Positions 61,441 through 64,000 of a stretch of DNA of 64,000 nucleotides are shown piece after piece. The notes under the pieces were generated by a model that saw only the letters and a program-made list of their open reading frames with translations, had not been told where the DNA came from and made no database searches. Origin of the DNA: Actinopolymorpha alba DSM 45243 (GTDB lineage: Bacteria > Actinomycetota > Actinomycetes > Propionibacteriales > Actinopolymorphaceae); contig NZ_KB892743.1 in NCBI RefSeq assembly GCF_000373925.1, positions 1 to 64,000 of the forward strand, read 5' to 3'. The number at the start of each line of letters is the position of its first letter. Position 1 is the first letter of the stretch. A program made the translations under genes and the position numbers.

Positions 61441-61455
61441 TCTCAATAGTTGAGA
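61441..61455. promoter_or_regulatory. Palindrome between divergent genes
   Basis: TCTCAA-TAG-TTGAGA is a perfect inverted repeat with a 3-bp centre, 13 bp upstream of the GT-C glycosyltransferase start and about 40 bp before the riboswitch. It may be an operator. Confidence 0.4.
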
Positions 61456-61496
61456 CACAGGTGCGGGAACCTCCCTGAGCGGTTAGCGTTGCTCGC

Positions 61497-61660
61497 GGTC
61501 ATGAGCGCCAGCATGGAGCTCACCATCAGATGCCCAGGTCGCGTCCTTCGCAGACCAGCTTTCTGTGGTGATCCCGCTCCGACAGCCCCGGCTCGCTGGC
61601 CGGCAACCCTCCTCCGCGGTGGGGTGCCCCGGGTGAAGACCAGGCGGTGCCAACCGGCAT
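61497..61660 (+). promoter_or_regulatory. SAM-IV-like riboswitch with enlarged P2 loop
   Basis: Outer stem GGTC (61497-61500) pairs with GACC (61638-61641). The S-box-type core GGCCGGCAACCCTCC is at 61598-61612, followed by GCGGTGGGGTGCCCCGGG and GAAGACCAGG, which matches the actinobacterial SAM-IV consensus as I recall it. GCCAGC (61507-61512) pairs with GCTGGC (61595-61600). The enclosed loop is 82 nt, far longer than the approximately 15-20 nt of typical members; its 3' part ACAGCCCCGGCT is like the normal loop, so about 65 nt look inserted. It lies 50-70 bp before a sulfur-metabolism gene and would reduce its expression when S-adenosylmethionine is abundant. Confidence 0.85.
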
Positions 61661-61709
61661 GGCAAGCGCGGACCCCGCACGGCCTCGGGGTCCCGAGTCT
61701 GCGAGGTGT

Positions 61710-63176
61710 GTGTTGACTGCGGTGGAACTCCGGCCAGACGGCTGTTCAACCTTCCACGACTCCCTTTCCACGGCGTCCGGGTACGGATCCGCTCCCGACC
61801 ACCCGCTCGACCCCGCACGGTCGGGCTGGGGCGTCAACCCGCTTCTACCCGTGTTGGGCGCCGACCTCGCCGTTCCCCTCGTGACCGGTGAGACGCTGCC
61901 ATACGCCAACCTCGACTACGCCGCGAGTGCGCCCTGCCTGCAGGAGGTCGCGAACCACCTCGCCGAGATCCTGCCGTTCTACGCCAGCGTCCACCGCGGT
62001 GCCGGCTACTCGTCGCAGGTGAGCACCTCGGTGTACGAAGGCGCCCGGGCCCAGGTCGCGGCGTTCGTCGGCGCCCGCGACGACGACGTGGTGGTCTTCA
62101 CCCGCAACACCACCGACGCGCTCAACCTGCTGGCCGGATGCGTTCCCACGGACGATCCGTCCGGCGGCGAGGTTGTCTTCCTCGACATCGAGCACCACGC
62201 CAACCTGCTGCCCTGGCAGCGCGGCAAGCACCGCTGCGTCCTGGCCGGCACCACCCAGCGGGCCACTCTCGTCGCGCTGCGGGCCGCACTCGCCGCCCGA
62301 CCGGCCGCCCTCGTCGCGGTCACCGGCGCGTCCAACGTCACTGGTGAGGTCCTGCCGCTCGAGGGGATCGTCGCGATCGCGCACGAGCACGGCGCACGGG
62401 TGGTCCTCGACGCCGCCCAACTCGCCCCGCACCGCCGGATCGACCTGGCGTCGTCGGGCGTCGACTACGTGGCGTTCTCCGGACACAAGCTCTACGCCCC
62501 GCTCGGATCCGGCGTACTCGTCGGCCGGCGCGACTGGCTGGACGAAGCGCCGGCGTACCTTCCAGGTGGTGGCGCGGTGCGCGAGGTCGGCCTCACCCGG
62601 ACCACGTGGGCGAGCGCACCGCAACGCCATGAGGGTGGCACCCCTAACGTCCTCGGCGCCGCCGCGCTGGCCCGCGCCTGCCAGGCGCTCGCGCAGCTTC
62701 CGGACGGCGCGCTCGAGGCGCACGAGAACGCGCTACGGGACCACCTGATCAGCCGGCTCGACGTCCTTGCCGGAGTACGCCTGCACCGCATCTGGCGGGA
62801 CAGCCCGAGTTCGATCGGCGTGGTGGCGTTCAGCATCGAGGGCTTCCACCCCGGCTTCGTCGCGGCGTACCTCTCAGCGGAGCACGGCATCGGCGTCCGC
62901 GACGGGAAGTTCTGCGCCCATCCCCTGATCTCCCGGCTGGGCGCCACCGACGGCGCGCTCCGGGCCAGCTTCGGCGTAGGCAACACGCTCGCGGACGTCG
63001 ACCGGCTCGCCTCGGCTGTCGAGGAACTCCTCACGACCGGACCGCGCTGGGAGTACGCCGTCGTTGACGGTCGCTGGGCACCCACCCCGGACCTCCGCCC
63101 GATTCCGGCCTGGGCCGTGCCGTCCGAGAACGCCGCCACCGGGACGGCACCGTGCGAAGGCGAGCCGACCTGGTGA
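61710..63176 (+). CDS. Class V aminotransferase / cysteine desulfurase-like PLP enzyme
   Basis: Start GTG 61710 (VLTAVELRPDGCSTFHDSL), about 488 aa; GAGG lies close upstream, so TTG 61713 or a later GTG at 61722 is also possible. SufS/NifS-type motifs include LDYAASAPCLQEVANHLAEI, GAGYSSQVSTSVYEGARAQV, VFTRNTTDALNLLAG, ASNVTGEVLPL, VVLDAAQLAPH and the PLP-binding lysine in VAFSGHKLYAPLGSG. It probably removes sulfur from cysteine or a related compound. It is under a SAM riboswitch and followed by a cysteine-dioxygenase-like gene, so a sulfur-salvage role fits. The C-terminal 40 residues are an extra Pro-rich tail. Confidence 0.9.
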   Translation: MLTAVELRPDGCSTFHDSLSTASGYGSAPDHPLDPARSGWGVNPLLPVLGADLAVPLVTGETLPYANLDYAASAPCLQEVANHLAEILPFYASVHRGAGYSSQVSTSVYEGARAQVAAFVGARDDDVVVFTRNTTDALNLLAGCVPTDDPSGGEVVFLDIEHHANLLPWQRGKHRCVLAGTTQRATLVALRAALAARPAALVAVTGASNVTGEVLPLEGIVAIAHEHGARVVLDAAQLAPHRRIDLASSGVDYVAFSGHKLYAPLGSGVLVGRRDWLDEAPAYLPGGGAVREVGLTRTTWASAPQRHEGGTPNVLGAAALARACQALAQLPDGALEAHENALRDHLISRLDVLAGVRLHRIWRDSPSSIGVVAFSIEGFHPGFVAAYLSAEHGIGVRDGKFCAHPLISRLGATDGALRASFGVGNTLADVDRLASAVEELLTTGPRWEYAVVDGRWAPTPDLRPIPAWAVPSENAATGTAPCEGEPTW

Positions 63177-63516: not shown

Positions 63517-64000
63517 ATGTCCACGACCACACTCACCTTCAGCGACGATCCGTTCATCGGGCCAACCACCGGCGCCGACGTTTCCTCCGCCGCCGCGCTG
63601 GTCCGCCGGCTGGCCGCCGACCCCCAGGTGTGGCGGGATCGCGTCCGCTTCGGCCGGGGCGAGGAGCGGTGGTACGCCCGCCTCGACGTGGACCCCGACC
63701 ACGAGGTCTGGCTGATCTCCTGGCTTCCAGGTCAGCGCACCGGACTCCACGACCACGGTGAAGCCCTCGGTGCGTTCGCCGTCGTACGCGGAACCCTCAC
63801 CGAGACGACCGTGCGGTCCGGACCGCTCGGCCTCGGCGATGCCGTACGGTCGAGCCGGCGGGAGTTCGCGCAAGGGGGCATCCGCGGGTTCGGCTACGAG
63901 CACGTGCACGAGGTGGCCAACCTGAGTACGGATCCGGCGGTCAGCATCCACGCCTACGCACCGGAGTTGACCGCGATGACGCAGTACGTGCTCGAGCACG
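63517..64000 (+). CDS. Cysteine dioxygenase-like cupin protein (3' end outside window)
   Basis: Start ATG 63517 (MSTTTLTFSDDPFIGPTTGA) with GGAGAG upstream; 161 codons are present before the window ends. Cupin iron-binding motif 1 is LHDHGEALGAFAVVRGTLTE, and the second motif region shows HEVANLSTDPAVSIHAYAPE, supplying the third histidine. CDO-like enzymes oxidise cysteine or other thiols with oxygen. Placement after a SAM-regulated cysteine-desulfurase-like gene supports thiol degradation. The full length and the Cys-Tyr crosslink region cannot be checked. Confidence 0.88.
   Translation, partial: MSTTTLTFSDDPFIGPTTGADVSSAAALVRRLAADPQVWRDRVRFGRGEERWYARLDVDPDHEVWLISWLPGQRTGLHDHGEALGAFAVVRGTLTETTVRSGPLGLGDAVRSSRREFAQGGIRGFGYEHVHEVANLSTDPAVSIHAYAPELTAMTQYVLEH

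Follow-up and report, generated by a model that had tools for sequence, protein, structure and literature searches.

The window (the whole stretch of 64,000 nucleotides analysed here) very probably holds a SAM-IV leader of a class V aminotransferase gene in which the short turn between helices P2a and P2b is replaced by a self-contained, conserved hairpin, P2c, making P2 a three-way junction. The locus is a real, conserved and rare structural variant of the SAM-IV class, with a complete aptamer spanning positions 61497 to ~61671. Since its relatives share the arm, and unrelated bacteria gained similar arms, we regard it as a rare variant of a known switch and not as a new kind. The features of the leader are collected in Table 1.

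The 5' half of the aptamer (61497-61512, GGTCATGAGCGCCAGC) is the sole exact match, with 0 mismatches, to GGTCAYGAGYGCCAGC within the window; the consensus searched was GGUCAUGAGYGCCAGC, for which ~0.5 matches are expected by chance even at 2 mismatches. This half is able to form all six P2a pairs. An earlier note, made from the sequence alone, had counted 82 nt between GCCAGC (61507-61512) and GCTGGC (61595-61600) and had likened the last part of this loop to the normal one. The count is exact (61513-61594), and the 3' end of the stretch is indeed the normal P2b/PK-1 hairpin AGCCCCGGCT (AGCCCCGGCTC at 61584-61594). The P2a/P2b turn proper thus amounts to 71 nt (61513-61583) versus 4-6 nt in relatives of the class, that is, some 65-67 nt extra. 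In the cryo-EM structure of SAM-IV the two helices are parted by a four-nucleotide turn (PMC6890682), and this short (~4-nt) turn, a feature of the class, is absent at the window locus. We do not regard a short turn as essential to membership of the family, since the insert leaves the core untouched and hairpins occur at this point in other SAM-IV leaders too. P1, P2a, P2b, P3, P5 and the conserved core are all present, as judged from the sequence and from the alignment with six relatives. The strands of the two predicted pseudoknots, PK-1 (CCCGG/CCGGG) and PK-2 (CCGCG/CGCGG), are complementary, and they are as invariant in all seven leaders as the bases of the SAM core.

Table 1. Features of the SAM-IV leader and the gene behind it (positions in the window).
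Feature	Position	Strand	Evidence or remark
-10-like element TAGCGT	61484-61489	+	7 nt 5' of aptamer; common to 7/7 inserted leaders
P1 5' strand GGUC	61497-61500	+	pairs with 61638-61641; exact consensus match, SAM-IV model structure
P2a 5' strand GCCAGC	61507-61512	+	pairs with 61595-61600; invariant in seven relatives
P2a/P2b turn, expanded to 71 nt (usually 4-6 nt)	61513-61583	+	
Inserted hairpin P2c	61515-61580	+	fold z -4.4 to -4.7; covariation, seven sequences
P2b hairpin AGCCCCGGCU	61584-61593	+	SAM-IV model; invariant
PK-1 loop strand CCCGG	61587-61591	+	inside P2b hairpin
P2a 3' strand GCUGGC	61595-61600	+	sequence; alignment of seven
P3 hairpin	61602-61629	+	SAM-IV model; invariant
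PK-2 partner CCGCG, P3 loop	61614-61618	+	invariant in seven
PK-1 3' strand CCGGG	61629-61633	+	complementary to 61587-61591; invariant
P1 3' strand GACC	61638-61641	+	SAM-IV model; alignment of seven
P5 hairpin	~61644-61663	+	SAM-IV model; one covarying pair (CG to UA)
PK-2 3' strand CGCGG	61667-61671	+	complementary to 61614-61618; invariant
Leader hairpin GGACCCC/GGGGUCC	61670-61693	+	in 7/7 leaders; probably part of expression platform
Shine-Dalgarno GAGG	61703-61706	+	distance to GTG/TTG start kept in relatives
Class V aminotransferase gene, TTG start	61713-63176	+	Pfam Aminotran_5, 290 bits

The inserted segment folds on itself. In the window its free energy is -32.8 kcal/mol (z -4.4 to -4.7 against shuffles), and its stem pairs GGAGC (61515-61519) with GCUCC (61576-61580), followed by UCACCA/UGGUGA above a 4-nt bulge. 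Comparison with orthologous leaders, which the earlier note had proposed as a check, found a hairpin at the same point, with its pairing kept, in six other genomes of the family. All seven leaders (G000-G006) have an insert of 64-72 nt, each forming one hairpin; these lengths (64-71 nt in the six relatives, 72 nt in the window) include the first base of P2b. The hairpins of the six relatives have z values of -2.7 to -3.7, and the window insert is ~60% identical to theirs. In a hand-fitted structural alignment of the seven sequences, four of which are close relatives (81-93% identical), 103 of 111 cells of the stem are paired and 8 of 17 stem positions carry compensatory changes, where 5000 column shuffles gave a mean of 2.7 and a maximum of 7. 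RNAalifold run on an unfitted MAFFT alignment recovers the stem too and shows 2 compensatory pairs at the stem base. The apical part of the insert varies freely among the relatives, making a sequence-specific binding element in that part less likely. An expanded variant with ~65 nt inserted in P2, as the earlier note had suggested, is thus supported by both phylogeny and covariation.

Among eight genomes sampled from the family the insert occurs in seven, of which six belong to the same genus as the window and one to a second genus; the eighth (G007, of a third genus) has a normal turn, with a four-base GCAU before P2b. Normal turns are also found in relatives of the order, tentatively labelled Kribbella-like, and in the other SAM-IV of the window's own genome. 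In this second SAM-IV (L001, G000:C49:61890-61998, minus strand) the loop reads GUUCCGGC in place of GCCCCGGC, and its PK-1 partner is altered to match (CUCCGGAAUG), possibly a compensated PK-1. Among 116 matches to the SAM-IV P2 pattern in 394 sampled genomes of the class, 115 have 5-7 nt from P2a to the P2b G, a length that counts the first P2b base. The lone exception (G422:C1:386152-386200) has a 15-nt turn in which a four-pair mini-hairpin is possible, and might be an intermediate between the normal and the expanded form. When 84,980 species were scanned for long P2 turns, 27 loci came up. Five of these (L035, L037, L045, L057 and L058) proved to have a normal turn and a chance upstream match; the other 22 are real, carry inserts of 23-78 nt and belong to seven groups at genus level: Catellatospora (8), Cellulomonas (4), Luteimicrobium (3), Streptacidiphilus (2), Arthrobacter (2), Actinopolymorpha (2) and a metagenome-assembled genome of the Mycobacteriaceae (1). 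As the scan required an exact pattern, 22 is a lower bound. The inserts of these loci fold into hairpins that stop 2-5 nt before the P2b G. Compared by eye, the hairpins of different genera seem unrelated, and the turn therefore appears to be a permissive insertion site at which arms were gained repeatedly.

The covariance model places the aptamer otherwise. The Rfam SAM-IV (RF00634) match covers 61567-61674 with 65.6 bits, well over the gathering score of 38; with the exact 5' half, this upholds the claim that core and closing stem fit SAM-IV. The 5' half of the match is misplaced: the match begins within the insert and takes GGU-----GAUCCCGCU as a weak 5' half, the 67-nt insert not being absorbed. 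Read literally, it would give an aptamer that starts at 61567 and has a normal P2 turn, leaving 61497-61512 as a 5' half that is either decayed or a duplicate. The normal-loop placement that the earlier note had named as counter-evidence does formally occur; we judge it an alignment artefact. The model's chosen 5' half lacks five conserved positions, contains non-standard pairs and is not conserved among the relatives, whereas the upstream half agrees with the consensus at every position and is kept in seven genomes, with constant spacing to the -10-like element. That element (TAnnGT, as TACTGT, TACCGT or TAGCGT) lies 7 nt from the aptamer in all seven inserted leaders. Their Rfam scores are 62-68 bits versus 113.7 bits for the normal-turn family member G007, and the window locus falls 48 bits short of the latter. 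Despite its score over the cutoff, a start at 61567 is hence very improbable. No other Rfam match was found in the region, even at E up to 1, when a nested known RNA family was sought.

The remaining readings concern the insert itself. An anti-aptamer fold, in which a decoy 5' half (GGUGAUCCCGCU) within the insert competes with the real one, could appeal to the partial 5'-half mimic revealed in the window's insert by the model placement, and to the nested minimum-energy fold of the window RNA, which disrupts P2a (-82.1 versus -73.2 kcal/mol for the constrained aptamer fold, pseudoknots being outside the calculation). The disruption, however, is due to the 5' half itself, GGTCATGAGC pairing with the 3' side of P2 in the window and also in G006, while the insert still folds on itself; the mimic, moreover, sits in sequence that is unconserved among relatives. 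The unconstrained folds of the other five leaders are partly unlike the aptamer fold; taken together, these folds speak against the reading preferred below. We consider such a decoy highly unlikely, and the alternative fold and altered ligand response suggested by the earlier note find no support in an insert that folds on itself with unconserved sequence beside an invariant core. Least probable of all is the recent insertion of a mobile or repetitive element: the sharp, single-point insertion with inverted-repeat structure would suit one, but the insert is single-copy in the genome and is shared across seven genomes from two genera, in which its sequence has diverged and its stem has undergone compensatory changes. 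Somewhat more room, though still little, is left for a functional regulatory module that, by remodelling the P2 bend into a three-way junction, alters the affinity for SAM or the kinetics of folding, or that takes a second signal by binding a protein or a second RNA. Compensatory changes that keep the stem across two genera, and similar hairpins gained at this same SAM-IV turn in several genera, point that way; against it, the apical sequence is unconserved, length and sequence differ between genera, the insert has no Rfam match, and orthologous leaders without the hairpin exist. The reading we prefer remains a SAM-IV leader with a self-contained arm. P2c (61515-61580) would take the place of the short turn and make P2 a three-way junction; most likely it is a peripheral arm, tolerated or stabilising, by which the bend that PK-1 needs between P2a and P2b is preserved. 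With the helices, the core and both pairs of pseudoknot strands intact, SAM would be expected to bind as usual, as we infer from the invariant core.

The gene at 61713 encodes a class V aminotransferase resembling cysteine desulfurases (Pfam Aminotran_5, 290 bits). Its nearest NCBIfam family is SufS, and the product falls under the cutoff of this and every other NCBIfam family; class V aminotransferase is here a common SAM-regulated enzyme that has no specific family name in the libraries searched. A cysteine dioxygenase gene follows at 63517. In the class sample, 64 of the 116 SAM-IV matches precede this same aminotransferase ortholog, so that its control by SAM-IV is common. Most inserted leaders precede this gene, yet so do those 64 of 116, and a tie between the insert and one gene, which we considered, shows no clear enrichment. 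No intrinsic terminator was found in the leader. The leader hairpin, which stands between PK-2 and the Shine-Dalgarno sequence, shares 61670-61671 with the PK-2 strand CGCGG (61667-61671), and the most probable mode of regulation is therefore at translation, in a SAM-dependent manner.

A leader peptide was also considered, with an ATG at 61513 and a frame running to a TGA at 61716, and was rejected, as that position reads AGGAG.. or GCGGG.. and not ATG in the six relatives. The insert begins with this ATG, whose frame ends at a TGA that overlaps the region of the gene's TTG start. Further upstream, the -10-like TAGCGT was not picked up by a sigma-70 consensus scan; in the normal-turn leaders of the Kribbella-like relatives such an element lies 8 nt 5' of the aptamer. 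An inverted repeat upstream of it (61441-61455, TCTCA-N5-TGAGA) resembles a transcription-factor operator, and similar TCTCAT...ATGAGA repeats occur upstream of Kribbella-like SAM-IV leaders.

Among known systems, the locus agrees with SAM-IV (RF00634; PMC6890682) in its helices, PK-1 and PK-2 strands, core and position before a sulfur-type gene, and departs from it in having 71 nt with an extra hairpin instead of the four-nucleotide turn. In SAM-I the bend comes from a six-nucleotide kink-turn in P2 (PMC6890682). Both RNAs have a P2 bend that lets the P2 loop form PK-1, with a kink-turn motif in SAM-I and a predicted junction with an extra helix here; the window RNA lacks P4 and has PK-2 and P5, as in SAM-IV. 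Many riboswitches possess variable insertions, which are stable stem-loops that leave the core undisturbed, such as the optional P3a of the TPP riboswitch, which is predicted to form a three-way junction (PMC2258182). The window locus shares with these a hairpin that folds on itself, is unconserved in sequence and sits at one specific site of an unchanged core, with a predicted three-way junction, and differs in its host (SAM-IV) and site (the P2a/P2b turn). We found no description of this insertion for SAM-IV in a literature search that lay outside the original SAM-IV papers (PMC2327355, PMC1950547).

Apart from its insert, this SAM-IV leader is an ordinary one. It identifies the P2a/P2b turn as a place in the class where insertions are permitted; the Rfam model has no description of such a site, and riboswitches of this type therefore score too low and receive a wrong 5' end. 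The repeated gain of hairpins at one bend offers a natural test of the part that the P2 turn plays in PK-1 geometry and SAM binding.
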